A stretch of DNA of 22,895 nucleotides from a virus, in the IMG/VR virus record IMGVR_UViG_3300048588_000467, positions 1-22,895 of that record, one strand, 5' to 3'. Below are positions 2,832-22,895 of the stretch, piece after piece (the first letter of the stretch is position 1; every line of letters begins with the position of its first letter). Under the pieces are notes generated by a model. That model made no database searches. It worked only from the letters and a program-made list of their open reading frames with translations, and had not been told where the DNA came from. The translations under genes were made by a program, and so were the position numbers.

Positions 2832-3271
2832 AGCCGAGGACGGAAAACCCGATCAGTGAATCGAAGCCAGGCAGGGCTGATGCGGATGATCTCCACGCCA
2901 CGCTCGTGGGTGACATGGAGGAGATTCTGCCCTGGGAGAAATATCGCCAAATGGTGGGGGATGCGCCGCACCTTCACCAAGAGGGCGTCTCCAGGCTCCG
3001 CGTCAGCGATCGCCACTTCCGTAAACCAACGCGCACCATCACCCTGGAACCATGCCAGGATCGGGCTGGAGTCCATCCATCTGGCCCCAGTAGCGGGCCC
3101 GCCAGGCAGGTCCAACTGGGGCAGCCATCCCGCCTCGGCATAGACTGCGGCGACCAGTCGGTGGCAGCACGCACCGCGGCCGCGGGCGGCTGAATCGTCG
3201 CACCACGGTGTGCCCACCCATTGGAGGGCCGACGCGGTGAGTCTGGAGAGATCGGCGTCACTTCTTGCCAT
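2828..3271 (-). CDS. NlpC/P60-family tail-associated cell-wall peptidase (GTA g14-like)
   Basis: This 147-aa protein has the layout of phage tail NlpC/P60 cysteine peptidases, which cut peptidoglycan cross-peptides during DNA entry. It opens with ASALQWVGTPWCDD. GRGACCHRLVAAVYAEAG (residues 31-48) aligns with the family's G-x-D-C-x-G-L-V motif and makes Cys36 the likely nucleophile. PHHLAIFLPG (105-114) supplies the catalytic His. The motif is altered: Asp before Cys is Cys35, and the usual Gly two residues later is Arg38. The frame is open further upstream to 3409, but I chose the ATG at 3271, because it overlaps the hub gene by only 14 bases and places the family's N-terminal helix at the start. 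It lies between the DUF2163-type hub gene and the tip gene, as in gene transfer agents. Confidence 0.85.
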   Translation of the reverse strand: MARSDADLSRLTASALQWVGTPWCDDSAARGRGACCHRLVAAVYAEAGWLPQLDLPGGPATGARWMDSSPILAWFQGDGARWFTEVAIADAEPGDALLVKVRRIPHHLAIFLPGQNLLHVTHERGVEIIRISPAWLRFTDRVFRPRL

Positions 3272-5258
3272 AGGACGAGTTCGTGCGTTTGGGCACGGTG
3301 AATGACGGATTCTTGGCTGGGATATCGGGGAAACCCCCGAACCGAGGGAAGTTGGAGAACTTGCCCGTGCAAGTGGCTGCGCGGCCGTCACAACCCGGGA
3401 CCAGGTCAACCTCCTGAGAGCTGTCCCACGATGCCGCCCGGTCCAACTGCAGGGTGATCCGATCGTCTGCCACGGCTGAGGACGCCAAGATTAGAAACCG
3501 GTGCCCTTCCAAGACCATGAATCCGAGGGCAAACCAGTCGGCCGTGCCAAAACCCTCTGGCGCCCCCTCCCAGTCTCCCTGGATCTGCACCTGTGTGCCC
3601 GATCCACTCCCCGTTGTGGTGGCCGAGAACGTCCATGCCTCGATCGCCAGTCCACACTGGGCATCGAAGAGTGCGTGGTTGCAACCAGGCTGCATCACGA
3701 AGCGTGGTAACGGTCGATCAAACGCCCCGTAAGGCCCCCTTGCTGTCGCCTTGAGGAAGGGCCCGTCCCAGAACACCTGGACGATTTCTCCCGTCCATCG
3801 CGGCGAAATGGCCGTGGCCGTGGCTCCATCCAGATCTGCCTCGAGGATCGCGATCTTGACCCGGGCCGTCAGTTTTCCTGGAAGGAACTCCTCCGCCCAC
3901 GGCTCATGCCTGGCGTCGATGGTGGCCTCATCCCGATCCAACCTTACCGATCTTCGGATTTCGCTGTGCGTGATGGGGGCAGCTATCCACGTATGCCCGT
4001 CGCCGGTCAGTGATCGCTCGTAGCCCGTGCGGTAGAAATGGGTCTGAGCCCCTGCTCGATCGATGGTGATGCGGTAGAGCCAGGCACGCGGAGTCACTGC
4101 ACCGATGGTGCTGCCTCGGGATTCGTCCTGTGGATCCTGGATGGAGTACTCCTCCGGGATTTCCACCCATGCCAGACGGGCCTCCGCCAGGAATGGATTG
4201 TGGAAGCGGATCTCCAGTTCCTGATCCGCGTGGCGGGCCAGGATGGCCACGCTGGTGAGGGTGTACGATGGATCGACGTCAAACGGGAGGGGCGACAACA
4301 CGGGAACATTGTTGCCGGATGGCGAGAGGCATCGGATCACCCATTCTTGCCCTGCAGGATCAGTGAGACTGAGGAACCGGTAGGGACCCAGCAAGGCGGC
4401 ATCGTGGAGGGTGATCTGGGTCGCTCCCGCAGAGGCTGGACTTGCGATCCGCACCGCCTCGGACAAGGAGCCGACGTAGTGGTGGCCCACATCCGCCCGC
4501 ATGTCAGCCCACCACCTCAGCATGGCCGCCACCTCGGCCCTGGACTTCATCACCACCCTGGCGGCGGCCGCCATCGCTGGAGACTGCGGATAGTAGGCGG
4601 TGGACCGGCGCCGTGCAGATCTTCCCACCTGTCGTCGGGTCACCTCGACCTGGGGCAATCCACCTTGGGGCGGCTCTGCCCAATCCGCCATGAGGGGAAA
4701 TATCTTGGGCACGGTGCTATCGCCCAGGGCGGGTCCGGATCGCCAGACGACTGGGGCAGGATCGATGGCGACGTCGGCATCCGCGTCCTCCTCGAAAGCG
4801 AATCTGACACGTGTCACATCCGGCCTCAGTAAGGAGGGCAGCTCAACTTCCAGACGGCCAACGAGGGCCGGAGCCATCCACTCCCAATCTTCCGGCGCTG
4901 CTGGATTGATCTCCCAATCGGACCAATCCTCCAACCAGCCGATGGTGAGCCCACCCGTCACGAGTGCTGTGTCCCATTCAGATCCGGGGATGGCGAACGG
5001 CCACGCGGGGACGATCCGGAGGAAGTCCTGGTCCGAGGCGATCGCGTTTCTCAGGAGGTTCATTTCCTCCAGGAGCAGCAGGCTTTCCCACCGCATAATG
5101 CAGCGGAGGGACACCCCTAGGGATTCACGACTCTCTCGGCCGGTTAGGCTCCGCTCCCTCAATGTCGCCACCGAGATCCGGAGAGTCACTGGGGCATTCC
5201 AGTTCGGACCGAAGTTCGCGATCCAGGCGGACTGATCGTTGTAGGTCGTCGGGATCAT
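3258..5258 (-). CDS. Tail hub protein with C-terminal DUF2163/BR0599-like domain (GTA g13-like) and long N-terminal region
   Basis: This 666-aa protein carries the hallmarks of the DUF2163 / phage BR0599 hub family in its C-terminal part. They are FYRTGYERSLTGDGHTWIAA (408-427), PRFVMQPGCNHALFDAQCGL (518-537), PGCDGRAATC (621-630) and FSNFPRFGGFPDIPA (634-648), with Cys526, 535, 623 and 630 as the typical cysteine set. RcGTA g13 and its relatives form a ring under the distal tail. The first 340 or so residues (NFGPNWNAPVTLRISVATLR...) are extra relative to the roughly 300-aa stand-alone family. They could replace the separate distal-tail protein (g12/DUF2460 type), which I do not find in the window. 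Start and stop overlap its neighbours by a few bases (tape measure stop at 5255, peptidase start at 3271). The hub assignment is firm; the fused distal-tail role is inference. Confidence 0.85.
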   Translation of the reverse strand: MIPTTYNDQSAWIANFGPNWNAPVTLRISVATLRERSLTGRESRESLGVSLRCIMRWESLLLLEEMNLLRNAIASDQDFLRIVPAWPFAIPGSEWDTALVTGGLTIGWLEDWSDWEINPAAPEDWEWMAPALVGRLEVELPSLLRPDVTRVRFAFEEDADADVAIDPAPVVWRSGPALGDSTVPKIFPLMADWAEPPQGGLPQVEVTRRQVGRSARRRSTAYYPQSPAMAAAARVVMKSRAEVAAMLRWWADMRADVGHHYVGSLSEAVRIASPASAGATQITLHDAALLGPYRFLSLTDPAGQEWVIRCLSPSGNNVPVLSPLPFDVDPSYTLTSVAILARHADQELEIRFHNPFLAEARLAWVEIPEEYSIQDPQDESRGSTIGAVTPRAWLYRITIDRAGAQTHFYRTGYERSLTGDGHTWIAAPITHSEIRRSVRLDRDEATIDARHEPWAEEFLPGKLTARVKIAILEADLDGATATAISPRWTGEIVQVFWDGPFLKATARGPYGAFDRPLPRFVMQPGCNHALFDAQCGLAIEAWTFSATTTGSGSGTQVQIQGDWEGAPEGFGTADWFALGFMVLEGHRFLILASSAVADDRITLQLDRAASWDSSQEVDLVPGCDGRAATCTGKFSNFPRFGGFPDIPAKNPSFTVPKRTNSSYGKK

Positions 5259-7459
5259 GATTCCATTAGGTCGACGATCATGGAACGGAACCGAGGATCG
5301 CGCCGGAGCTGCTCAGCGTCGCGGCGGTTGTCGACGATCACGACGCGCATGGGCGATTGCTCCTGGGGAGCCGCTTGCGTCGGAGCCGACGCCATTATGT
5401 CTCCCTGCCTGAGGCCCTCCAGGAATGGGACTCCAAGCCTGTCGACGGCCGGGGCATCAAAGACGAACTCCTTCCGATGCACAGGGCCGGCGACCTGGGT
5501 GATCGGGCCGTCGCCAGTGTATCCACCGCCCATGAATCCCGTGGCGGCTTGCATGCCAGTGGCGGCACCGACCCCTGCGGCTTGGGCGGCGAGGAATGCG
5601 GCCACACCGACGCCGGCAGCCGTGCCCATGGTGGCGATCGAAGCCGAGACGGCGGCGGCGTGCCATGACGCCCCCACGGCCAACGCCTCTTTCTTTAGTG
5701 CAGTGCCCAGGACCTTTTGCAGGGCGAAACTGACAATCATCTGGGCGATCATCTGAGCGAAGGCCGAGATCACCGCGTCGAGGATTGCCCTCCCCACGTT
5801 GGCGAAGGCATCCGCCCACCCCATGGTGCCGCGGATCAGGCCTTCAATGGAGGAGGAGATCCCATTGAGTGCTCCTCCGATGGACGTCTGAATCGCCCGA
5901 CCCACCTGCTCGGCGGCCGTGCCAATCTCCATGAGGCTGTTCTGGAGCCCAGCCGTCACCCCCGCCCCCATTCCCATAGCCCCATCCACAGCGGCCGACT
6001 GCTGCCAACTGTCGAACCTCGCCTGGGTACCCAGGGTGTAAGACTGCATCTCGATCATCTCGCGATGCGCCTCAGCCATCGCTTCAGCGTGCGCCCTACG
6101 CTGTTCGTCCGTCCTGAGCTGGTCCTCCAGGAGGCGGTTCTGTTCCTGATAGTCCTTGATGGCCTGCTGGCGCCAGAACTCGTCCTCCTCGTTGGCCCCT
6201 TCCTGCTGTGCTTGGAGCCTGGCGAAGGTATTTTCCCCAGCCAGGTTGCCTGGTCCAAACATGCCCAGGTCTAGAATCAGATCCCTCTCCGCTTGCGCAG
6301 CCGACCCCGCTTTAGCCACTGCCGCAGCTCCAGCGCTCTCCAATCGACGGATGGCCACCTCCGTCGCTGCAATGGTCTGCAGCAGCTTTTCTTCCTCAGC
6401 GCGGAGTTCTTTCCTCTCCTTGTCCAGAACCCGAAATGGTCCCGCGGAAAGGAATAGAGGCTTGTTGCGATCCGCATCGATCTCAGCGTTGACCTCCTCC
6501 ATGCGTGCCCGGACCAATGGAAGGCGTTGCCGCTGCTGGTCGAGTTGTGCCTTGAGGGTGTCCAGGTTCTGCGTGCGCGCTGCCTCAGTCGTTGCCGTCC
6601 GGACCATGCCGAGGGCGGCTTCCTGTGCCCTAATGGCGGCCTCCTGCATTTCGTCCAGGGCCTTGGGCATTGCCCCCAGTGCCTGGAGAATGCCTCGTGT
6701 GATGTCCTGGAGCTTTTCCCACGCTGGCAAAACCGCGTCCGCTGCCATCGCGTTCAGAGTATCGCGGAGGGTGGATCTGAGGCCGGCTGCAGTCTTTGCC
6801 TGTTCCTCCATCGCCCCAGTGGTACCCGAGAATGCTTCGCGGATGATCTCCATCGCCCTACCGACTCCCCGCCCTGATTCTGCGAGGGTATCCAACCTCA
6901 GGCGGGTCTCACCACTGACGAGCCCCATCTCAAGGAGACGCATGGTTGCTTCCCCCACTGGAGTCCCCGATTGGAGTCCCGAGTAAAGTCGGCCGATCCA
7001 CATGGCGGCTTCACCGAACGGGCGACCGGCAGCAGCCGCCGCGTCCCCTACCAATCGTAACGCATCGCCGCTGGCCATGGCCCCAGCAGTCAACGACTGC
7101 AGCAGGCGAGATGCGTTGACCACCTCCGGCAACTCAAATGGTGTGCTCGCAGCAAAATCTGCCAGGTCGGTCATCCTGCGTTCCGCGGCATCCATGGACC
7201 CCAACAGGGTTTTGAATGCAATTGTGTTTTGCTGGAGGGCCGTGTTGAAGGCCATTCCTGCGCGGGCGGCCGAGGTGATGGCGTTGGCGGCACCTGCCAC
7301 CGACATCAGGCTGATCCCAAACACTCCCCCCATCCGAAACATCGAGGCAAAGGACTGAGCATTGGTGCGCAGAGAGAGGAATGACTCCTGGGCACGTCGC
7401 AGAGCCTCGAGGTCAGCCGAGGTCTTGATCGCGATCTGGACAATGCTTGGAGTGCTCAT
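5255..7459 (-). CDS. Tail tape measure protein
   Basis: This 734-aa protein sets tail length and travels with the DNA during injection. Residues 70-175 match the tape-measure N-terminal domain (QQNTIAFKTLLGSMDAAERR, DLADFAASTPFELPEVVNAS, then GDAAAAAGRPFGEAA). A long charged coiled-coil stretch follows, roughly 295-385 (LDTLKAQLDQQRQRL, KELRAEEEKLLQTIAATEVA). Around 545-645 lie hydrophobic and Ala/Gly-rich segments that could insert into the membrane. The end has the typical GGGYTGDGPITQVAGPVHRK and FVFDAPAVDRLG pattern. With the usual 0.15 nm per residue, the tail would be about 110 nm; this is an estimate. It starts inside an ATGA overlap with the 51-aa ORF and ends with a 4-base overlap with the hub gene. 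Confidence 0.95.
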   Translation of the reverse strand: MSTPSIVQIAIKTSADLEALRRAQESFLSLRTNAQSFASMFRMGGVFGISLMSVAGAANAITSAARAGMAFNTALQQNTIAFKTLLGSMDAAERRMTDLADFAASTPFELPEVVNASRLLQSLTAGAMASGDALRLVGDAAAAAGRPFGEAAMWIGRLYSGLQSGTPVGEATMRLLEMGLVSGETRLRLDTLAESGRGVGRAMEIIREAFSGTTGAMEEQAKTAAGLRSTLRDTLNAMAADAVLPAWEKLQDITRGILQALGAMPKALDEMQEAAIRAQEAALGMVRTATTEAARTQNLDTLKAQLDQQRQRLPLVRARMEEVNAEIDADRNKPLFLSAGPFRVLDKERKELRAEEEKLLQTIAATEVAIRRLESAGAAAVAKAGSAAQAERDLILDLGMFGPGNLAGENTFARLQAQQEGANEEDEFWRQQAIKDYQEQNRLLEDQLRTDEQRRAHAEAMAEAHREMIEMQSYTLGTQARFDSWQQSAAVDGAMGMGAGVTAGLQNSLMEIGTAAEQVGRAIQTSIGGALNGISSSIEGLIRGTMGWADAFANVGRAILDAVISAFAQMIAQMIVSFALQKVLGTALKKEALAVGASWHAAAVSASIATMGTAAGVGVAAFLAAQAAGVGAATGMQAATGFMGGGYTGDGPITQVAGPVHRKEFVFDAPAVDRLGVPFLEGLRQGDIMASAPTQAAPQEQSPMRVVIVDNRRDAEQLRRDPRFRSMIVDLMES

Positions 7460-7611
7460 ATCGTGGCCACGTGTTCGAGTTGTGTGTCTACCTGTTCCTG
7501 CTCGTACTCTTTTGGGCCACTTGGCCTAAGGGGGGAGTCTCTAATCCTTGGGACCCTGATTGATGCGTCTGGCGCCGCTCCTGCAATCGCGATTTCCAAT
7601 CTCTGGGTCAT
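7456..7611 (-). CDS. Small ORF translationally coupled to the tape measure gene (51 aa)
   Basis: ATG at 7611 opens a 51-aa frame beginning MTQRLEIAIAGAAPDASIRV and ending EYEQEQVDTQLEHVATI. Its TGA overlaps the tape measure ATG in ATGA. The spacing between chaperone and tape measure genes and the exact coupling argue that it is translated. It is hydrophilic, with no membrane segment or recognisable domain. No strong Shine-Dalgarno sequence precedes it. It could serve mainly to bring ribosomes to the tape measure start, or be a small tail protein. A chance ORF of this length in GC-rich DNA cannot be excluded. Confidence 0.5.
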   Translation of the reverse strand: MTQRLEIAIAGAAPDASIRVPRIRDSPLRPSGPKEYEQEQVDTQLEHVATI

Positions 7612-7628: not shown

Positions 7629-7799
7629 ATGATCGTCGTTGCTCTATTGGGCCTGGTCTTCAGCGGCGGCTGCTTCTACCTGTCTGCTGTCATGCTGCAG
7701 GCGGTCCACCCGGCGGTACCTTTGTGGGCATGCATGCTGATACTTCTCCTGGCGATCGTGGCGATGTCGGTTTTCTTCAGGGTCACGAGGCGAACCTAA
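7629..7799 (+). CDS. Small two-helix membrane protein on the opposite strand (56 aa)
   Basis: ATG at 7629 to TAA at 7797-7799 encodes 56 residues with two hydrophobic segments: IVVALLGLVFSGGCFYLSAV (2-21, extending to about 26) and PLWACMLILLLAIVAMSVFF (31-50). A turn of AVHP lies between them and a basic RVTRRT tail ends the protein. Positive-inside logic puts both ends in the cytoplasm. It fills the minus-strand gap between the chaperone stop at 7796 and the ATG at 7611, ending four bases inside the chaperone's 3' end. The minus-strand frame opposite it reads as a charged, His/Arg/Gln-rich string, as expected of an antisense shadow. The ribosome site is weak (AGG at 7618-7620). A small holin, antiholin or other envelope protein is possible, but I do not recognise a family. 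Confidence 0.45.
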   Translation: MIVVALLGLVFSGGCFYLSAVMLQAVHPAVPLWACMLILLLAIVAMSVFFRVTRRT

Positions 7800-8358
7800 T
7801 CGGCAGACTTTCTGAGCTGCTTGCAGAGTCGTTCCGCCCCGCGTACGGCCTCCCTGGAGTGAGGACCTGCAGCAGCCAGTTGCATCATCACCAGCCATTC
7901 CGCCCTGTCTGATGCCTTCTGCCGCTGGCTTTCGTTGGCCCATAGTTCGATCTGCTCCAGTGTACAAGCATCGGCCGTCAGCGGATCGATCCCTGCTGTG
8001 ACGGAGATGTGCGCGACGTAGTCGTCCCATCCCCACGTCCGCCGACCTCTTTGCATTTCTCCAGGATGCTGCGGCTCCCTGCTCGGCGGCCGCACCAGGC
8101 GAAAAAACGATCACCCACCTGGTATAGGGCAGCAGCGGCTTCCTCGTAACTCTCGGGGGTCAAATCCCCAGCCCAATCTTTTCGATCAGGCATGGCCGGT
8201 CCGGAGTCCACCTCGTTGCGAGCGAGAATTTCAATCATCGCAGCCTCATCCTGCTTTTCCCATGCCGTGAACAGCGATGGGTATTGCCGGACCTTAGGAG
8301 CCCGGAACACTGCGGTCAGGGATGTGCCATCCTCGAGGGTCAATTGAAGGGGTTTCAT
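7796..8358 (-). CDS. Tail assembly chaperone, long form made by -1 frameshift (gpGT-like)
   Basis: Reading from ATG 8358, a -1 slip at TTTTTTC (8107-8101) joins the first 86 codons to a downstream frame that ends with TAG at 7798-7796, giving 187 aa. The downstream part contains WGWDDYVAHISVTAGIDPLT, ACTLEQIELWANESQRQ and SDRAEWLVMMQLAAAG, which looks like folded protein. The zero-frame continuation is Arg/Ser/Thr-rich and looks like a shadow. This is the gpG/gpGT arrangement known from lambda and many siphoviruses, where the T extension recruits the tail tube protein to the tape measure. It lies just upstream of the tape measure gene, where the family is expected. The frameshift is inferred from sequence; its efficiency is unknown. 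Confidence 0.8.
7978..8358 (-). CDS. Tail assembly chaperone, short form (gpG-like)
   Basis: The zero-frame product is 126 aa, starting MKPLQLTLEDGTSLTAVFRA and carrying a helical acidic region (WEKQDEAAMIEILARNEVD, TPESYEEAAAALYQVGDRFF) up to the slippery site at codons 84-86. The last 40 residues (CGRRAGSRSILEK...) are low in hydrophobics and overlap the -1 frame. Short-form chaperones coat the tape measure during tail assembly and are absent from the finished virion. The gene begins 37 bases after the lipoprotein gene stop, with only a weak purine stretch (AAAG) as ribosome site. Assignment rests on position, size and the frameshift signal rather than on sequence identity to lambda gpG. 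Confidence 0.8.
   Translation of the reverse strand: MKPLQLTLEDGTSLTAVFRAPKVRQYPSLFTAWEKQDEAAMIEILARNEVDSGPAMPDRKDWAGDLTPESYEEAAAALYQVGDRFFAWCGRRAGSRSILEKCKEVGGRGDGTTTSRTSPSQQGSIR
8070..8107 (-). other. Programmed -1 ribosomal frameshift site with downstream stem
   Basis: On the minus strand the heptamer T TTT TTC (8107-8101) is in the correct phase: codons CGT TTT TTC of the chaperone gene. It has the X XXY YYZ form that lets both tRNAs slip back one base. After a 6-nt spacer (GCCTGG), TGCGGC (8094-8089) can pair with GCCGCA (8075-8070) across a 13-nt loop, a suitable stimulatory stem. After the slip the frame continues CGC CTG GTG and stays open to 7796. Confidence 0.75.
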
Positions 8359-8395: not shown

Positions 8396-8908
8396 TCACC
8401 TGGTGGCCCGAGCTTCTGCCTGAAGTTGCTCCAGCACGCCATGGGCTGGTGGGAGGGCTACAGGCCCGGACCTGGCGCCGGTCGATACCGGTCCCAAGGC
8501 GAGGTTCATGCCGGCGGCGATACCGGTGATGGTGGCCTCGGCGTAGCGGGATTCACGCAGGTCCCACTCGGCACCAGTGAACAGGTCAAGAAGCATGGGC
8601 GCGGCGGTCAGGACCAAGAGCCCTTCGTCGGATTGCATCTCCGGGAACCTCCCGCCAGCAATGATGACGAGAGCGGCCATATCCCATTTCTCCTGCGAGA
8701 CCAGGTCGTTGACTCCAGCCCTCACCTGCTCCAGGGCCGGACGAGACTGGGGGGATCGGATCAATTCGACCCTTGTGCCCGAGTATGCCGCCAGCTTGGA
8801 AATGGAGTGAATCCGGGCGACCGATTTGTCGGTCTCGGGTCCACCCTGATTGGTGGCGCATCCGGTGGAAATGACGATAGCAACGAGGCTAAGGAGTACG
8901 AGTTTCAT
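8396..8908 (-). CDS. Phage-encoded lipoprotein, function unknown (170 aa)
   Basis: The first 17 residues (MKLVLLSLVAIVISTGC) form a lipoprotein signal peptide: a Lys near the start, a hydrophobic core and a lipobox ending in Cys17. The next residue is Ala, so in proteobacterial terms it would be sent to the outer membrane. The mature part has several helical stretches (EQVRAGVNDLVSQEKWDMAA, LLVLTAAPMLLDLFTGAEW, YAEATITGIAAGMNLAL) and no domain I recognise. Its ATG overlaps the stop of the beta-helix gene by four bases, so it belongs to the same translated unit. Late phage lipoproteins include superinfection-exclusion proteins (T5 Llp) and small outer-membrane spanins. This one is longer than a typical o-spanin and no i-spanin is adjacent. 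An envelope role is likely, the mechanism unknown. Confidence 0.8.
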   Translation of the reverse strand: MKLVLLSLVAIVISTGCATNQGGPETDKSVARIHSISKLAAYSGTRVELIRSPQSRPALEQVRAGVNDLVSQEKWDMAALVIIAGGRFPEMQSDEGLLVLTAAPMLLDLFTGAEWDLRESRYAEATITGIAAGMNLALGPVSTGARSGPVALPPAHGVLEQLQAEARATR

Positions 8909-11082
8909 GGTGTCTGAAGGATGATGGAACCGACTTGAACCCGCCGGGCTGTCACGGTCCGCCCACCAGGAAGTGGGGGATCAATGTCCGGTGGAGGCGG
9001 ATCCACCGGAGGGGGAGGAGGAGTGTCGATGTCGAAGAGTTCGATTCTGACGTTGTCGTATTCGATGTTGTGGTTCTGGTTGGCCGTATAGGAACGGCGA
9101 AAGCCAACCTGGCCTCCGGATTCAAAGGTGGTGATTGCCAGGGCATCGGTATCCAGGACGTCAGGGTGCTCAAAGAGTCCGAATCCGCTGTCATCGAGAC
9201 GAACCAGAATCCCGTTGGTGCTCCAGGAGGCCCGAACCTCATACGTCTTGGATCCAGAGTTCCCGAGTCGCACGGTGGAAGGGTAGTTGTAGAGGGTGAC
9301 GACCTGGTTGGTCCCGTCGCGGACCATCGACCGCTTCAGCCGTGCCGCGCCTCCAGCGATCTCCATCCAGTAATAGTTGGTCAGATTTTGAGCCATGAAG
9401 ACCAACCCACCGCCGTTGGACTGGTAGTTGTTTTTCGCGAAATAGCGGGCGGAGATGTCGCGAGAGACTGGAGCGTTGCCGGCCACAGCAAACACGGTCC
9501 AGGTTGTCGTCGTGTCCGCGAAATAGTTCCGCCTGGACGCGGTCGACCGACCGTGAGTCATGCGCTGGCTCGACCAGTGCGTCCATCCGATACCCTGCTC
9601 GGTTGGGGTGCGAAGCCAGGGATCCTCGGTGGGCATCGCGTCCTCGAAGTCATCCACAAAAATCGCGACCTGGTTGGTGTACTGAGGTGGTGTGGGCACG
9701 GCGGCTGGATTGAACCCTGGCAACTCCCACGCCCCGGCCTCGGGTCTCGTCCCTCGGACAGTCCCGATGGCATCGTTCGTGATCACCTCCCAGCCCCAAG
9801 GCCAGATGGACGGGTCAATGCCGAAGCCCAACGCGGGAACGTCGTTGGTCAAAATCCCGGTCAACGAGAAGGCATCCACGAAAAGGTCACCGTCGAAATA
9901 TTCCGACCACCTCGGAAGCGGGGACGATGAAACTGGAGCATTGATCAGATTCCCAAACCCTCGCGACGTGGGACCTGTCAGGATGTTGTTGTACACCCGG
10001 ATATTGATCCCGCTGGAGATCCGGAGGGTGGAGTTGTTGCAGTTGATCGTCCGCCCACTGAGACTGTTCGGGTTGGTGTAGGTCATTCCACCAAGACTTC
10101 GGATGAACGTGCAGTGGACGACAGTCACGTTCTCAACGGCATCGGCCGCATTGAAGGCGTTCGCTCTCGTGGGCCCGAATACGCAGTTTCGGAAGGTGAT
10201 GTTCTTGTTTGCGATGGAGTCGTCCCAACTATAGCGGTCGTTGTTAAACTGAACACCAGCGCCCTCGCTGAAAGCGAAGGTGCAGTTCTCCACCAGGATG
10301 TTGTTGTTGTAGAACTCCGGGGGTAAATCCTTGGACCCAGGATAGAGGAAGTGCAGTAGATCGGAGTGGCGATCAGGTTGTGTGGTGTTGGCTGGATCTT
10401 TGTCGTTGAACCCATCGTCCGCTCCCACGAATCGGGTGTTCCGGATCACCGATTCCATCAGCCCAAACGACCTCATGCTGTCGTGGTTCACGTCGTACAC
10501 GTTGCAGCCGTCGATGGTGATCCTGTACCCGCGAGCTGAGATGCCGATGCCGGTTTTGGTGATCTCAAGGTTTTCAAGGGTGATGTCGGACCCCCATTTG
10601 ATCTCGGCCGCGGGAGCCTCGATGGACCCTCCGGTGTAATTATCGCGACGAATCAACCCGTTGCGTATGATCGCATTCCGGGCGCCGTACAGTTTGAACC
10701 CATCCGTGATGTCAACGCCGTCCAGGATCAAAAACAGGTTATACGTACCTGACCGATCAGAACCGAAGTAGGTCAGTCCGTCAGCCCCAGCCATGAAGGT
10801 TCCGATAGCTGGACTGTGCCCAGCCTCAGCGCGAATGGTGACCCATCCGGGGAAAAGGCTCACCCGGTTAATTCCGACCTGCCAGTCGCCATAATAACCA
10901 TCCCGAAGGACCACCTCGTCACCGGCCAGTAGCCCGGCGGATTGGACCTTAGACAACGTCTGCCACGGCATATCCGTTGTGCCCGGGTTGGCGTCGCTGC
11001 CAAGCACGGCGTCCACGAAATAGGTGGCAGCGTTCGCTGAAAGAAGCCCCGTAAGAAGAATGTGAAGGACAATCAGTCTCAT
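8905..11082 (-). CDS. Secreted right-handed beta-helix protein with lectin-like domain
   Basis: This 725-aa protein begins with a Sec signal peptide (MRLIVLHILLTGLLSANA, cut near residue 18). Residues 20-460 resemble pectate-lyase-like parallel beta-helix proteins. The opening TYFVDAVLGSDANPGTTDMP and GDEVVLRDGYYGDW is the classic start, followed by coils such as NAIIRNGLIRRDNYTGG, DITLENLEI, YRITIDGCNVYDVNHDS and NITFRNCVFG. Residues 474-684 look like a concanavalin/LamG-type beta-sandwich (AIFVDDFEDAMPTEDPW...IEYDNVRIELFD). A Pro-rich linker (688-705) leads to a short tail, RTVTARRVQVGSIILQTP. Such folds bind or cut polysaccharides in tailspikes and in secreted bacterial enzymes. Catalytic residues cannot be named. 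Four-base overlaps tie it to the upstream fibre/lectin gene and the downstream lipoprotein gene. A signal peptide is unusual for a virion part. Confidence 0.8.
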   Translation of the reverse strand: MRLIVLHILLTGLLSANAATYFVDAVLGSDANPGTTDMPWQTLSKVQSAGLLAGDEVVLRDGYYGDWQVGINRVSLFPGWVTIRAEAGHSPAIGTFMAGADGLTYFGSDRSGTYNLFLILDGVDITDGFKLYGARNAIIRNGLIRRDNYTGGSIEAPAAEIKWGSDITLENLEITKTGIGISARGYRITIDGCNVYDVNHDSMRSFGLMESVIRNTRFVGADDGFNDKDPANTTQPDRHSDLLHFLYPGSKDLPPEFYNNNILVENCTFAFSEGAGVQFNNDRYSWDDSIANKNITFRNCVFGPTRANAFNAADAVENVTVVHCTFIRSLGGMTYTNPNSLSGRTINCNNSTLRISSGINIRVYNNILTGPTSRGFGNLINAPVSSSPLPRWSEYFDGDLFVDAFSLTGILTNDVPALGFGIDPSIWPWGWEVITNDAIGTVRGTRPEAGAWELPGFNPAAVPTPPQYTNQVAIFVDDFEDAMPTEDPWLRTPTEQGIGWTHWSSQRMTHGRSTASRRNYFADTTTTWTVFAVAGNAPVSRDISARYFAKNNYQSNGGGLVFMAQNLTNYYWMEIAGGAARLKRSMVRDGTNQVVTLYNYPSTVRLGNSGSKTYEVRASWSTNGILVRLDDSGFGLFEHPDVLDTDALAITTFESGGQVGFRRSYTANQNHNIEYDNVRIELFDIDTPPPPPVDPPPPDIDPPLPGGRTVTARRVQVGSIILQTP

Positions 11083-12683
11083 GGGATGGTTAAAAATTCT
11101 TGGTGGGCAACCTTCAAGTCATCGAACCAGTGCTGCACCGCCACACTGCCGGATGTTGATTTGAAAGCTGAAAGACGCACTCGGTAGGCCGACGATCCTG
11201 AGGTGCCGTTCGTCAGGTCAGTCCGAATAGACAGTTCCGACCTGTCTGATCCGTTTTCATTGGCGTTGCCGCGCCACACCCTAAGGATCCCGTCTGAGCC
11301 TGTGGATTGGCGGTAATAGACCCAGATCCTGTAATAATTCCCGGGCCAAAAGTCCTGTGACGTCCTGCTCGTTACAGCGGAACCATGGGTCAAGCGGAGG
11401 TTGCCTGTTGTCCTGTGAGTCAAAAACGCGTTCCCGATCCTGAAAATCTCCGTGTCGGACTTAGGTTGCTCAACCGGGTCCATCCGATAAATGAATGTTG
11501 CCCAGGCCTCAGCCTGGCCACCCGGCAACGACCACTCGATGATGATATGGCTACCAGACGTGCTTGTGGTAGGAGCGACCATTTTCAGGCTCCCAGACCC
11601 GACCAACGGATCAGTGGTGTCGCTAGCGATGTAATTGTTCGTGATGCCCGAAGTCACCGTCCAATTTGTGCCCAAGGTCGAAGTTTCGAAGCCGTCGTTA
11701 ACCAGGTAGTCGAACCCGCTTGGAGTTGGCTCCCCTCCGATGATCGACAATTGTTTGAGCACCGCCTTCCAGTTGATGTGCTCGTTTTCCACACCCGCCA
11801 CCTGTAGCACCGCTGCCCCAGAATCGCTCCCCCAGAAAGCGGACGGTGATCCCGCTGACTGAAAAGACTCTAGGGTGTTGGTCCAACTGGTCCTTACCCC
11901 ATCGCGATCCCGAGTTGCGGCGGACAATCGAAACGCTGCTGAATTCGTCGGACCCTCCCCTATGATGTCGGCAATGACGAACTCGGCGACGTTGGTTGCA
12001 GGAGAGTTTGTCCATAGTGGAAATGGTGTCGCGTTGGTTGTGGTAATGGTGAGGTACGAATCCCCAGACCCTTCAGCGCCATCCGGCCACGTCGTCCTGG
12101 ACACCCCACCAAGTGTCAACTGGTCTGTGGACAGAAGGCCAATGTGCGCTTCGTTGGTTCGAGCCGCCGTCAGCGGGATCCGGGCGTCGTCCAGCACGCC
12201 GGTCGTGAGGCTCGAAGCATCAACCCCAGGTCCGATGATCGCTCCGTCGATGGGATCTGTAATGACGAGAGACTCGGCAATCAAATTGCTGACGTTGAGG
12301 TCGTTTTCGAAGTCAACCGCAGATCCAAAGGTCACCGGTTGGGAAAACGTCACGGGACCTGTGAAATCGTTGGTCCCATCCAAGGTCACCGTCCCTTGAC
12401 TTGGGTCGGGCCACCACCCAGGAAGCTCGTAAGCCTGCCAGTATCCGTTCTCGTCTGTCCCAAGGAACAGGCCAGGCGTCAGGACAAAGAGCCATGGGAC
12501 GTCATTAGTATGGACACGCTCCGGAAGTCCAATCGCCTCTGCAATCGCGGTGGAGTTCGACTTCCATAGGTTGGTCTCCAGACCAGTCGGTTGAAGCTGC
12601 GAGTTGAGGCGGAAGATGCCTTGCGCGTGGCCGGAGATGGCGACCCACAAGATGAGGACGGCGGTGACGATACGTTCGGTCAT
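11079..12683 (-). CDS. Fibre-like protein with signal peptide and C-terminal lectin-like domain
   Basis: This 534-aa protein begins with a Sec-type signal (MTERIVTAVLILWVAISGHA, cut near 20). Residues 95-200 resemble phage fibre shaft sequence: NDFTGPVTFSQPVTFGSAVD, then SLTTGVLDDARIPLTAARTN and GLLSTDQLTLGG. Residues 250-315 (FRLSAATRDRDGVR, VLKQLSIIGG) look like a fibre-tip segment. Residues 325-525 form a likely concanavalin/LamG-type beta-sandwich (LVNDGFETSTLGTNWTVTSG to VAVQHWFDDLKVAH). The gene overlaps the upstream 157-aa fibre gene and the downstream beta-helix gene by four bases each. It could be secreted to the cell surface late in infection, or it could be a fibre whose hydrophobic N-terminus is used for something else. 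The signal peptide is clear by eye, the destination is not. Confidence 0.75.
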   Translation of the reverse strand: MTERIVTAVLILWVAISGHAQGIFRLNSQLQPTGLETNLWKSNSTAIAEAIGLPERVHTNDVPWLFVLTPGLFLGTDENGYWQAYELPGWWPDPSQGTVTLDGTNDFTGPVTFSQPVTFGSAVDFENDLNVSNLIAESLVITDPIDGAIIGPGVDASSLTTGVLDDARIPLTAARTNEAHIGLLSTDQLTLGGVSRTTWPDGAEGSGDSYLTITTTNATPFPLWTNSPATNVAEFVIADIIGEGPTNSAAFRLSAATRDRDGVRTSWTNTLESFQSAGSPSAFWGSDSGAAVLQVAGVENEHINWKAVLKQLSIIGGEPTPSGFDYLVNDGFETSTLGTNWTVTSGITNNYIASDTTDPLVGSGSLKMVAPTTSTSGSHIIIEWSLPGGQAEAWATFIYRMDPVEQPKSDTEIFRIGNAFLTHRTTGNLRLTHGSAVTSRTSQDFWPGNYYRIWVYYRQSTGSDGILRVWRGNANENGSDRSELSIRTDLTNGTSGSSAYRVRLSAFKSTSGSVAVQHWFDDLKVAHQEFLTIP

Positions 12684-13153
12684 GGCGGTGGCGGGAGGAC
12701 TTCCCAGTCTGCGTTGTTGGAGTCGTTGACGAAAAATCGAATGCGGGTGCCGTTGCTCGGATGGTCCAGAATCAACTCAGTCTGTGATCCTGACGCCCCG
12801 GGCCACGGCGCACCGTTCCATGTCGGATTCCCCTCTCCGTCCTCCCCGATCTTCAGGAGGACAGCCCGGTTACCGATGGAAGCCTCAGCACCAATGGCTG
12901 TCCGGGCGGCGGCCTCGTCGGTGGCCGTCACAAGGGATCGGCCCACCGAGGAGGAATCGTTGATCTGGCTGGCCGGGTGGGAATGGGTGGCGGCGGCGAA
13001 TGTGGATCCGAGCTGGGTAGCCAACCAGGCGATGAACGCATCGAAACGCATGCGCCAGGCCCGCACCCCCTGACGGTACCCAGTGACCCAGTCGAGTGAG
13101 GGTTGCAGTCCCTCACTCGTCTTGTCGTCTGTCTGGTCCAGCCGCCGGCTCAT
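12680..13153 (-). CDS. Short tail fibre / fibre-attachment protein (157 aa)
   Basis: A helical N-terminal part (LQPSLDWVTGYRQGVRAWRM, FDAFIAWLATQLGSTFAAAT) leads to HSHPASQINDSSSVGRSLVT and ATDEAAARTAIGAEA. This is the common phage fibre motif in which a 'His-Ser-His' segment is followed by 'xxxRtAlGa'. A short beta-rich end (LLKIGEDGEGNPTWNGAPWP, TRIRFFVNDSNNADWEVLPP) follows. It is one of the few genes here with a good ribosome site: AAGGAAGG ending seven bases before the ATG. It lies two bases after the 87-aa gene and overlaps the next gene by four. Likely a trimeric fibre part or adaptor; no receptor specificity can be read. Confidence 0.75.
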   Translation of the reverse strand: MSRRLDQTDDKTSEGLQPSLDWVTGYRQGVRAWRMRFDAFIAWLATQLGSTFAAATHSHPASQINDSSSVGRSLVTATDEAAARTAIGAEASIGNRAVLLKIGEDGEGNPTWNGAPWPGASGSQTELILDHPSNGTRIRFFVNDSNNADWEVLPPPP

Positions 13154-13424: not shown

Positions 13425-15188
13425 TTACTGGATGACTTCGATGCAAAGGCGATCCACTGGGGTCGCCTGGAGAACGTCGTAGGGATTGCCGCTGGACCAA
13501 ACGTGGTAGGTGTGATGGTTCACCCCACCGACTGACTCGTCGGCGATCCGCTCGTAGGCAGGGGCATGGGCAGCGTCATCTATGGATCCCACCGGAGGAC
13601 GTAGCGTGATGCGGATGGAATAGCTGCCCAGGCTTGCAGGAACGCGCACAATGAACTCGTGGGCGTCCGAGTGTGCCTCGATGACGATCGCTGACCCTCC
13701 GCTGGACACCGTGCCGGTGACAGCCCCAGTAGTCGCGTTGACTGTGACGTGCTTCCAGGCCAGGACCGACGGCCCTCCGGATCCAGGAGGAGGGTTCCCG
13801 GCGTGATAGACGGCCTGCCCCTTGTAGAGGATCTCGGAGTTGTTGAACGTGAGAAGGACCGTGCCTCCGGTACCTGGATTGTTCGGGGTTCCGTCAGCAT
13901 GGACCCCACCCAGGAAGAAGCTGAACCTATCGGCCGTTCGCGCGTACCAGGTTGAGGACTGGACCCCTAAGGTATAGCTAGTGGCGTACAGGTTGAGCAT
14001 TTGCCTGGTCGCAGTGCCAAAGCCCAGGGTCCCGGTGATGGTGCCACCGGCGACCGGCAAAGCGCCGATGTCGGAGATCACCTCGGCGGGAGTGCGGGTG
14101 CCAAGGGTTAGCGGTCCAGATGACGGGTCTGATGCCCAAACCGCGAAATGGGTTGTGACCTCACCAGTGGGTTGCGCCCGAAGGTCGAGTCCACCCAAGG
14201 ACAGCGAGCCAGACTTGGACTGTCCGGTGCCACTGGTGTTGAGGAAGAAGCTTCCATGCTGCCCATCGATCAGGTCCGCATCCATACCGGATCCGTCACC
14301 CTGGTCTCCGGCATGCCAAATCCGTCGCCAGTTGGCCCATGACGCAGCGTCCGCTCCGAGTAGTTTGCGAAACCACAATCTCTCTGTTCCAGAGGAGCCA
14401 CTGGACCAGACTTGGAAGCTCCCGATCTTGCTGCCGGTGGCGTCGGCAAAGCGGGATAGGAAGAACCCAGCACCAGCTTGGTTGGGTGACGAAAGCTCAG
14501 GATAGTTGGTTCCACCTCCGGACCCGGTGGACCAGAACGGCTGGAAGCCCTGCCACCCTGGGACGTCACTCCCATCCGTCCTGGTGGCGAGGTTCATTCG
14601 GGTCGCCAGGCTGGTGGCCGGGTCGAAGTTTCCAGCGTGCCACACTGGCTGATTATTTACCCAGACCCCGGTGGCATTGATTCCGCCGGCGCCCTTGTCG
14701 CCGCCCGTGGGGGCACCGACCACAAGGCCGCCAGTGCCACCGAAGCGCCCAAGGATCTCCAGCGTGTTCTGTGCGGCCGCGCTGGAGGCATACCGTCCGA
14801 ACCGTATCTCACCGCCAGAAGGTGCGAACAGAGCCGTGCCCCACAAACTCCCGTTGTGGTGAGGCTCCAGACCAAACTGAGAGGCGGCGTCAAAGCGGAG
14901 TCCTGTGTTGCGTTGGCTGCCGGTCGAGTTGTTCGCGAACCCGACTTGCAGACTCCCAAGCGAGTGAAGCAATCCGGTCGAGGAATCACGGCGGAGAGTC
15001 ACGTCCGGAGCCGTAGTGCCGCCCGGACCGAACTCCATCTGATAATCCCGAAGCCGGAACCGGGGTTGCGTGTCGCCGGCCCGGAACAGTTCGACGAACC
15101 GGATCAGGTCAGAAGTGACCGACGCGAATCTCGTGAACTCGCTCTCCGGTGCCCCTGCCTGGGCGACGATGTCGGCGATCTCCAGCAT
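13425..15188 (-). CDS. Tail fibre protein (587 aa)
   Basis: Residues 172-186 and 285-294 end in the phage fibre signatures VWHAGN and IWHAGD, and VYHAGN follows at 460-465. These 'HAG' motifs mark repeated shaft-to-knob modules in tail fibres. Between them residues 197-292 (NLATRTDGSDVPGWQGFQPF, FFLSRFADATGSKIGSFQVW, LWFRKLLGADAASWANWRRI) resemble the pyocin-knob type of fibre domain. MDADLIDGQHGSFFL (302-316) is a common fibre linker. The C-terminus (477-587, WKHVTVNATTGAVTG and onward) is a separate beta-rich domain, possibly the receptor-binding tip. The N-terminus (MLEIADIVAQAGAPESEFTR) would attach to the virion. It starts three bases after the 960-aa fibre gene stops. Confidence 0.85.
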   Translation of the reverse strand: MLEIADIVAQAGAPESEFTRFASVTSDLIRFVELFRAGDTQPRFRLRDYQMEFGPGGTTAPDVTLRRDSSTGLLHSLGSLQVGFANNSTGSQRNTGLRFDAASQFGLEPHHNGSLWGTALFAPSGGEIRFGRYASSAAAQNTLEILGRFGGTGGLVVGAPTGGDKGAGGINATGVWVNNQPVWHAGNFDPATSLATRMNLATRTDGSDVPGWQGFQPFWSTGSGGGTNYPELSSPNQAGAGFFLSRFADATGSKIGSFQVWSSGSSGTERLWFRKLLGADAASWANWRRIWHAGDQGDGSGMDADLIDGQHGSFFLNTSGTGQSKSGSLSLGGLDLRAQPTGEVTTHFAVWASDPSSGPLTLGTRTPAEVISDIGALPVAGGTITGTLGFGTATRQMLNLYATSYTLGVQSSTWYARTADRFSFFLGGVHADGTPNNPGTGGTVLLTFNNSEILYKGQAVYHAGNPPPGSGGPSVLAWKHVTVNATTGAVTGTVSSGGSAIVIEAHSDAHEFIVRVPASLGSYSIRITLRPPVGSIDDAAHAPAYERIADESVGGVNHHTYHVWSSGNPYDVLQATPVDRLCIEVIQ

Positions 15189-18975: not shown

Positions 18976-19524
18976 TTAGGATGTGGGTTTGGATCCGGTG
19001 TTGAGGGTGCTGTGCAGCCCCCATGCCTTGAGACGCACCGTGGTCAGGGCGCCGTCGCCAGCATCGATCCGGGTGGATCCTTCCACGGTCAGGCAGACCC
19101 AGTGGTCCATCACGATGAACTGGGCGTCCTTGTGGTCGTACACCTGGCCCTTGATCCATCCCTCGATCTCCGATCCCTCGAGGGGATTCCACTGGGCGGT
19201 GTTGTTGGCCAAAGGGCCGGTCCCGAAGAGTGACTCCAGCGCCAGGTTGCTGATCTCCTGGCACGTGAACATCAAATCCAGGGTCTTCTTGGTCTCAATG
19301 ACCTTCAGTCGACGGATCTGTCCGGGGGACGCCCCAAACATCTCGATTTTCTGGCTCTGCTTATCGACCTGGACGTCGATGACGCTGCCCAGGTTGACCC
19401 ATGCGGGATCGGCGGCGCCAGGCTTGCTCGTCTTGGAGCAGGTGCCAGCGGACGGAACGGTGTAGGCGGCCCCATTCCGGAAGAAGAGGAGATGGGTGCC
19501 GAGTGCGCGAGGTTCAGTGTTCAT
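18976..19524 (-). CDS. Major tail (tube) protein
   Basis: This 182-aa protein is the best candidate for the tail tube subunit that stacks into the long tail. It has the size and beta-rich character of such proteins (AWVNLGSVIDVQVDKQSQKI, RRLKVIETKKTLDLMFTCQE, EGWIKGQVYDHKDAQFIVMD, TTVRLKAWGL). Its place directly after the neck genes fits. EMFGASPGQIRRLKVIETKK and TLDLMFTCQEISNLALESLF recall siphovirus tube proteins with a 'change of reference frame' from neck to tail. It overlaps the terminator-like gene by four bases. No sheath gene is adjacent, which supports a non-contractile tail. A minor tail protein is the alternative. Confidence 0.75.
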   Translation of the reverse strand: MNTEPRALGTHLLFFRNGAAYTVPSAGTCSKTSKPGAADPAWVNLGSVIDVQVDKQSQKIEMFGASPGQIRRLKVIETKKTLDLMFTCQEISNLALESLFGTGPLANNTAQWNPLEGSEIEGWIKGQVYDHKDAQFIVMDHWVCLTVEGSTRIDAGDGALTTVRLKAWGLHSTLNTGSKPTS

Positions 19525-20021
19525 GGTTCAGGAGGTGGCGGTGGAGTTTGGAGGGTGAATCGAAGTGCCCGGCGGAATTGGAAATCGGCGTAATAGGTGA
19601 GCGTGCCTTGCGCATCAGTCTCGGAGTCGAATCCCGATAGGCCCACCGGAGGTTGCCCTGGTCCGGATGCCCACCCCTGCAGTAGGCCGATCACCTGGGC
19701 GAGGAGATCCAGCGCCTGTTTGCCGATGCCGCCATCCGCGCGATTGACCAAGGGGTTCTCAGCAATGACGACCCGCACGGTAATATCCGCCTTGAGGACT
19801 GGAGTAGGGTTCTCGTCCCGCGAGACTCCATCGGGAGTGATGACCAGGATGACCGCCCCGCCCTTGCCCTGTGCATTGCCCAACAAGCCGCCCATTCCCA
19901 ATGCCTGGGATATCTTGTCTACCAGGTCCTGGTCCTCAGTGAGGATGGGCACATCGCTGAGCCATGGATCGGCGGATAACCTGGCTGCAACGGCGTGTTG
20001 AATGGCGGTGAAAGGGTTCAT
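19521..20021 (-). CDS. Tail terminator / gp37-like neck protein
   Basis: This 166-aa protein has a helical N-terminus (MNPFTAIQHAVAARLSADPW), a central strand pattern (KGGAVILVITPDGVSRDENP, LKADITVRVVIAENPLVNRA) and a helix LDLLAQVIGLLQGW. The layout of tail terminator and Mu gp37-type proteins is similar: a small alpha/beta fold that caps the tail tube and joins it to the head. 'VRVVIAENPLVNR' is the most telling segment. It ends in a Pro-rich tail. It lies seven bases after the tail completion gene and overlaps the tube gene by four bases, the usual place for a terminator. Confidence 0.65.
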   Translation of the reverse strand: MNPFTAIQHAVAARLSADPWLSDVPILTEDQDLVDKISQALGMGGLLGNAQGKGGAVILVITPDGVSRDENPTPVLKADITVRVVIAENPLVNRADGGIGKQALDLLAQVIGLLQGWASGPGQPPVGLSGFDSETDAQGTLTYYADFQFRRALRFTLQTPPPPPEP

Positions 20022-22146: not shown

Positions 22147-22895
22147 TCAGGAAACGGTGAACTTACGGATCCCCAGGGTGCTGGTGATCTTGAGTGCTTC
22201 GTAATGCTCCACGGTGATGTCGTAGAGCTTGGCTCCCACCTGCTGGGTGTAGACGCGCACGTCCCCGCCCGAGATCGTGGGAGAGACGAAGCGCTTGATG
22301 TTGCTGGCGTCCTCGCTGTCCTGGCCGGACATGGCGTTGAACATCAGCACCAGGTTCCCGACCACCTGGGTCTTGGCCGCGGCGGCGGACTGGTAACGAG
22401 CCTTGCTGACACGCACCTGGTCCACGCCCAGGAACTGAGCCAGGGCACCTTCACCCAAACCCGCGGAGGCAAACCCACCGGCGGAGTTCTGCGCTCGATG
22501 CGCCAGGATGCGTTTGCTCCAGGCCGTCTCGCCGTAGCCGATCCGGGTGGGACGCACCCCACTGCTGTCCGCAGCGGTCACCAGGTCGAGCACCACGTCC
22601 TGGTCGGGATCCTTCCCGGCCGTCGTATCCCAGGTCTTGGCGGTGTTCGTGGCGGCCGCACTGAGGAGCGCAAACGCCCGGCGGAGGGAATTGCGGCGCA
22701 GCCGGCGCAGCAACTTGGAGACGAAGCGTTCCTCCCATCCAGAGGTCTCGGAGACTTCGTCCAGGTCTACGCGCATGGTCAGTCCGCGGTTCTCGGTCTT
22801 CGCGTTGACCTTCTTGCTGGTGTACTCCACCCGCTTGAAGTCCGAGTGGAACGTGCGCAGATCGTCGGTGGTATCGGAGAACCATTCCTCCGCGT
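22147..22895 (-). CDS. Major capsid protein, N-terminus beyond the window
   Basis: The frame is open to the right edge, upstream of the internal GTG at 22830 (…RTFHSDFKR before VEYTSKKVNAK), so at least 248 residues are present and the start lies outside. The sequence fits an HK97-fold capsid protein: an N-terminal-arm-like part (ENRGLTMRVDLDEVSETSGW), a long helix (RLRRNSLRRAFALLSAAATN), and the P-domain-like pattern PTRIGYGETAWSKRILAHR. A beta-rich part follows (DQVRVSKARYQSAAAAKTQV, TISGGDVRVYTQQVGAKLYD) and the protein ends ALKITSTLGIRKFTVS. Its order before the gp36-like gene is as expected. Which capsid subfamily it belongs to cannot be told; the fold is inferred from pattern and context. 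Confidence 0.75.
   Translation of the reverse strand, partial: AEEWFSDTTDDLRTFHSDFKRVEYTSKKVNAKTENRGLTMRVDLDEVSETSGWEERFVSKLLRRLRRNSLRRAFALLSAAATNTAKTWDTTAGKDPDQDVVLDLVTAADSSGVRPTRIGYGETAWSKRILAHRAQNSAGGFASAGLGEGALAQFLGVDQVRVSKARYQSAAAAKTQVVGNLVLMFNAMSGQDSEDASNIKRFVSPTISGGDVRVYTQQVGAKLYDITVEHYEALKITSTLGIRKFTVS

Follow-up and report, generated by a model that had tools for sequence, protein, structure and literature searches.

Three consecutive proteins with predicted export signals in the late tail operon of a putative Verrucomicrobiota phage

Tailed phages are taken to assemble their adhesion machinery in the cytoplasm. Their tailspikes, including the P22-type depolymerases with a beta-helix in the fibre or spike gene position, are likewise assembled there and carry no signal peptide. 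Phage-carried genes for exported outer-membrane proteins are nevertheless known, as in the case of lambda Lom and Bor; the lom gene lies between the tail spike and fibre genes (PMC12309495). Another group comprises small phage-encoded lipoproteins that act in superinfection exclusion, such as T5 Llp and TP-J34 Ltp. Signal peptides are scarce in published rumen phage genomes (0-2 per genome; PMC5723332), and their absence from the target proteins of phage DGRs has been remarked upon (PMC6199706).

How does a row of export-tagged genes within a tail operon compare with these systems? The window analysed here, a 22.9 kb IMG/VR virus record, contains three consecutive minus-strand reading frames, P534, P725 and P170 (the triad), flanked by the fibre block on one side and the tail chaperone on the other. 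Like Lom and Bor, they are phage-carried genes for proteins predicted to be exported. However, Lom is a beta-barrel, whereas the triad consists of two large fibre or beta-helix proteins and a lipoprotein, and in the lineage of the window the operon slot has been refilled with unrelated exported proteins. P725 shares the beta-helix and the gene position of P22-type tailspikes but differs from them in its signal peptide. P170 is small and phage-encoded like Llp and Ltp but matches no sequence family. A search of the open-access literature found no phage lineage for which signal peptides on fibre or spike genes had been described as a characteristic. What is new here is the recurrence of export-tagged, unrelated families in the tail operons of such a lineage.

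Operon layout and export signals

The minus strand of the window has a single head-to-tail gene order, which runs in the direction of transcription from the capsid to a TipJ-like tip (Table 1). Export was predicted with a rule-based test written here, which considers the n-, h- and c-regions and the lipobox. P534, P725 and P170 all pass, compared with 0/9 other window genes tested, and the false-positive rate is 1.1% of 17,886 internal start codons; passes at start codons inside tape measure genes were taken as false positives. The sequence-only reading had proposed three exported proteins within the tail operon, and the reading frames, their starts and the rule-based passes agree with it. P534 and P725 have all three regions and small residues at positions -3 and -1. 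The predicted cuts fall between MTERIVTAVLILWVAISGHA and QG in P534, between MRLIVLHILLTGLLSANA and AT in P725, and between MKLVLLSLVAIVISTG and CATN in P170. The weakest signal is that of P534 (score 3.68, cut after residue 20). Its n-region has a net charge of 0 when the amino terminus is excluded, and the protein passes only if a net charge of zero is permitted.

Table 1. Features of the window, with an exported family of the relatives in the last row
Feature	Position	Strand	Remarks
Major capsid	22147-22893	-	phrog_1005
Two small head-tail genes, then gp10-like gene	after capsid	-	
Tail terminator	19521-20021	-	PF23840 just below its cut-off
Putative tail tube	18976-19524	-	matches gene preceding fibre slot in many relatives
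Two small genes	between putative tail tube and fibres	-	
960-aa fibre	upstream of triad	-	first of three fibres without export signal
587-aa fibre	13425-15188	-	no signal; phrog_25747 tail fiber, E = 4.5e-9
88-aa gene	between 587-aa and 157-aa fibres	-	small gene
157-aa fibre protein	12680-13153	-	no signal; phrog_5711 head fiber protein, E = 3.5e-12; adjoins triad upstream
157-aa fibre/P534 overlap	12680-12683	-	ATGA, 4 nt
P534	11079-12683	-	534 aa; Sec signal
P534/P725 overlap	11079-11082	-	ATGA, 4 nt
P725	8905-11082	-	725 aa; Sec signal, beta-helix
P725/P170 overlap	8905-8908	-	ATGA, 4 nt
P170	8396-8908	-	170 aa; lipobox STG, then C
Tail assembly chaperone	7978-8358	-	directly downstream of triad
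Tape measure	after chaperone	-	
Tail hub protein	3258-5258	-	PF09931, PF09356, phrog_778; anchor for relative search
NlpC/P60, 64-aa gene, TipJ-like tip protein	after hub, in that order	-	
Exported early head-tail family	L115:3291-3833; L014:1502-2029; L086:31-627; L209:5001-5519		just after capsid gene in L014

Could these be chance hydrophobic N-termini or mis-called starts? The predictor is a rough one and the n-region charge of P534 is marginal, but the ATGA overlaps fix the starts, the chance of three adjacent passes is about 2.5e-5, and signals recur in relatives; we regard this explanation as practically negligible. The overlaps themselves had been read as a special tie within the triad and to the fibre gene in front of it. 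All three exist, but at least four other operon junctions are alike (2828/2831, 5255/5258, 18507/18510 and 19521/19524), and the overlaps are therefore a mark of operon membership rather than of any particular bond.

Between the triad and its neighbours, no promoter or terminator was found above chance with a simple sigma-70 consensus, which may not fit this host. This bears on the idea of lysogenic conversion, in which the triad would be expressed in a lysogen and alter the host surface, as lambda Lom does. The location of Lom within the lambda tail genes (PMC12309495) is in its favour, and at least one relative, L092, looks temperate, with an integrase-like gene adjoining its tail operon. 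By contrast, the triad has no separate promoter or terminator of the kind that a Lom-like moron would have, within the reach of that consensus, and its ATGA overlaps indicate co-translation with the tail genes. We consider lysogenic conversion very improbable.

Two other features of the operon are worth recording. An open frame at 7644-8114 (window:7460-8114) overlaps the chaperone gene toward the tape measure, as would be expected if the chaperone were extended by programmed frameshifting. Read from its TTG start, the NlpC/P60 frame (window:2828-3409) shares 152 nt with the hub gene, and its actual start probably lies more internally.

The three proteins

P534 consists of a Sec signal (residues 1-20), a fibre-like region to about residue 300 and a lectin-like C-terminal domain at about 315-534. 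Over residues 315-475 it is similar to a 241-aa protein of phage vir555 that also bears a signal (33.5%, E = 5e-10); there is no Pfam or PHROG match. A match in a Verrucomicrobiota genome (E = 1.8e-4) is spurious, as it runs out of frame over a transposase-like reading frame.

P725 has a Sec signal (residues 1-18), a right-handed beta-helix, a C-terminal domain and a tail (residues 681-725). The signal is followed by ATYFVDAVLGSDANPGT, a motif typical of secreted beta-helix proteins. The beta-helix model PF13229 is matched at residues 124-221 with 25.9 bits, exactly at its cut-off of 25.9, and PF22842 reaches 23.6, under its cut-off of 25.2. The N-terminal 46 residues resemble rhamnogalacturonan lyase 5olq (E = 7.5e-4), a likeness limited to that segment, and no PL or GH family matches across the fold. 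Cleavage of glycans by P725 is probable, judging from its fold.

Where does P725 come from? Matches were found in 81 of 388 sampled Verrucomicrobiota genomes, mostly to the N-terminal part, and most of the host beta-helix relatives that were read likewise start with a signal followed by YYVD. One Verrucomicrobiota chromosomal gene matches residues 8-680 at 32% (E = 4e-71), so that the homology begins inside the signal. This homologue lies between PTS/CBS-type and fumarase-type genes (named by eye), and no neighbour in the 5 kb read is a phage gene. Since it has a signal of its own and non-phage neighbours, P725 is of a host secreted type. With the secreted beta-helix proteins of the host (Pel9A-like, PL9 type) it shares the signal, the YFVD N-terminus and 672 residues of a Verrucomicrobiota gene, but it differs from them in lying in a phage operon and in an extra C-terminal tail. 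These last 45 residues, proline-rich and then GGRTVTARRVQVGSIILQTP, are absent from the chromosomal homologue and are phage-specific.

P170 carries the lipobox IST-G-C after a hydrophobic stretch, with the cysteine at residue 17 (score 5.11 in the rule-based test). The alanine at position +2 fits outer-membrane sorting by the enterobacterial rule, and P170 is predicted to be a small outer-membrane lipoprotein. A weak model suggests that it is mostly helical. No homologue was found in phages, viral contigs or the 388 Verrucomicrobiota genomes, and a weak PDB match to designed armadillo repeats (E = 0.014) was disbelieved.

None of the three matches a PHROG tail family or a PADLOC anti-phage or exclusion family at E<=0.1. 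Models made by AlphaFold2 without an alignment had pLDDT values of 36 and 31 and were of no use.

Predicted exported proteins in related loci

A scan of 84,980 genomes with the tail hub protein found ten relatives: eight Verrucomicrobiota metagenome-assembled genomes, one from Acidobacteria and one from Omnitrophota. Single-protein scans of viral contigs with P170, P725 and the hub gave no matches. The order of tube, fibre block, chaperone, tape measure, hub, NlpC, 64-aa gene and TipJ is mostly kept, and the host of the phage is taken to be a Verrucomicrobiota-type bacterium. The chaperone matches the gene in the same slot in L086 (E = 3e-5) and L095 (E = 6e-5), and the C-terminal domain of the 587-aa fibre is kept in L099 (43.7% over residues 470-587).

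Signal-bearing proteins recur in these late operons. Thirty-five were listed by hand, the window's own three included, and they fall into 29 families without detectable similarity to each other; L086 1164 aa, L094 223 aa and L089 824 aa were admitted by eye, below the predictor threshold. Their domains include beta-helix, GDSL esterase, LamG and fibre. The fibre slot of L087 and L098 holds signal-bearing beta-helix spikes of 755 and 769 aa, followed by a small lipoprotein-like gene, and in L088 it holds a signal-bearing GDSL esterase with a fibre-type motif. Other signal-bearing slot proteins are found in L096 (806 aa), L115 (299 aa) and L094 (608 aa, start uncertain), and in L099 a 223-aa one directly follows the homologue of the 587-aa fibre. 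Small signal-bearing proteins immediately precede the chaperone in L014, L095 and L209, and small lipoprotein-like genes lie ahead of it in L087, L098, L014 and L209. The fibre slot appears to be a cargo slot, which relatives fill with unrelated proteins whose common element is an export leader. In the relative with the closest hub, L007/L097, the slot is free of exported genes; the module is thus dispensable and not essential to the tail. The view that such proteins are ill-suited to ordinary cytoplasmic tail assembly is strengthened by these signal-bearing genes.

In L089, which lies on a 571 kb Puniceicoccaceae contig, three proteins with signals or hydrophobic N-termini lie in a row between tape measure and hub (3432-7596): 411 aa with LamG, 839 aa with Fn3 and below the threshold, and 151 aa. 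The locus is a Puniceicoccaceae prophage with a second three-in-row export set. The signal-bearing protein of L099 (L099:5949-6620) has, by eye, a PEP-CTERM-like C-terminus (VPIPEPSTLWGG...WNHRR), which no Pfam or NCBIfam model confirms.

Is this frequency of signals unusual? With the same gene caller and predictor throughout, the loci were compared with 84 dereplicated phage loci that have the same hub domain. Among non-core genes of at least 150 aa, signals occur in 30/112 genes of the Verrucomicrobiota-type loci and 22/494 genes of the controls, a share of about 23-27% versus 4.5%; for core genes the figures are 0/69 and 1/109. A conservative count, which leaves out L209 (found through an exported family) and the four of the 30 that are probably host flank genes, gives 24 of about 105 non-core genes and P of about 2e-8, although P values are too small because some genes share ancestry. 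The number of families, 29, speaks against a single event passed on by descent. Nor is the trait restricted to Verrucomicrobiota, since some control matches are real signal-bearing fibres. Two such fibre-like proteins are L076:14323-16221, with GAHA before the cut and QNLTTVSAANITDINGTKLAAGQ after it, and L081:14285-15223.

A conserved exported family is found early in the head-tail genes of four relatives. The leader is present in every member, while the rest of the protein shows 39-52% identity. The L115 leader is of the type IV prepilin kind (TIGR02532 score 18.0, cut-off 16.3), so the pilin pathway may receive the product of a late phage gene. Because leaders persist within families, export itself looks selected. 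This bears on the suggestion that the N-termini stay uncleaved and the proteins cytoplasmic, with the hydrophobic segment serving virion assembly or being the relic of a host gene. Kinship with a host secreted protein means that P725 could have inherited its signal. However, these operons have signals on 29 families that are unrelated to one another, and a relic would have decayed within families as divergent as the early head-tail one. We judge this suggestion improbable.

Possible sites of action

We lean slightly towards reading the triad as an exported module that binds glycans, probably cleaves them, and works outside the cytoplasm. As it lies inside the late tail operon, it would presumably be made late, together with the tail genes. 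P534 and P725, whose signals are evident, would cross the membrane via Sec and shed their signal peptides, while P170, by its lipobox, would be lipidated and reach the outer membrane. Outside the cytoplasm, P725 and P534 would bind glycans of the host surface or matrix, which P725 would probably cleave, and P170 may alter the surface or block adsorption. The functions named in the sequence-only reading, namely a changed host surface, a block to superinfection or the breakdown of exopolysaccharide, are conjectural at this stage. The most likely site of action would be the envelope of the infected cell late in infection, and then the lysate. This is supported by the signals of the triad against a null of 1.1%, the host-type character of P725, the 29 families and the vir555 row described below. 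Against it, the fibre-type sequence in P534 fits a virion part, and exported proteins of relatives show hallmarks of fibres or tailspikes (phrog_23059 in L098; fibre motifs in L014 and L088); the empty slot of L007/L097 also counts against it.

Such hallmarks point to exported virion decoration, in which outer fibres, spikes and decoration proteins would fold in the periplasm and be added externally to finished particles upon lysis. The signal-bearing proteins are of outer-virion kinds and never of the tail core (0/69). L098, L087 and L212 have a common exported tailspike-like protein with YGAKGD..DDT and the tail fibre family phrog_23059; the slot of L088, L096 and L098 contains no large fibre-like gene other than the exported one; and the early head-tail family lies next to the capsid gene in L014. 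Since signals are restricted to fibre-, lectin- and spike-type genes, decoration stays a candidate for some of the proteins. On the other hand, we know of no tailed phage that exports its fibres, lipoprotein and prepilin leaders suggest anchoring in the host envelope, and three fibre genes without signals are already present upstream in the window. For the triad, decoration is possible but unlikely. The wider proposal, that a Verrucomicrobiota tailed-phage lineage uses host export pathways for its outer virion proteins (fibres, spikes and perhaps the capsid-adjacent protein), which finished particles acquire from outside upon lysis, is also rather doubtful.

If correct, these readings would imply either that the phage acts against host surface glycans through a late programme aimed at the envelope, as in the export module that we prefer, or that virion assembly includes a new step outside the cytoplasm. 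An export-leader rule would aid the annotation of many 'hypothetical' genes in Verrucomicrobiota phages.

A comparable row is present in vir555 (BK063671.1; L213), a circular phage record with T7-like genes. After its tail protein gene come three consecutive signal-bearing proteins, all annotated as hypothetical: a 768-aa fibre, the 241-aa homologue of the P534 C-terminus and a 524-aa protein with an N-terminus of the P725 kind. As in the window, consecutive signal-bearing fibre, lectin and beta-helix genes follow a tail gene, but the gene set is T7-like, the proteins are split differently and no lipoprotein was found. The exported fibre/lectin/beta-helix set thus occurs in two unrelated phage types. 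The host field of the record gives Methanomicrobiales despite the T7-like genes and the leaders, which makes the host assignment questionable. At L213:38140-43157, Sec-type or hydrophobic leaders are present on four successive vir555 genes.
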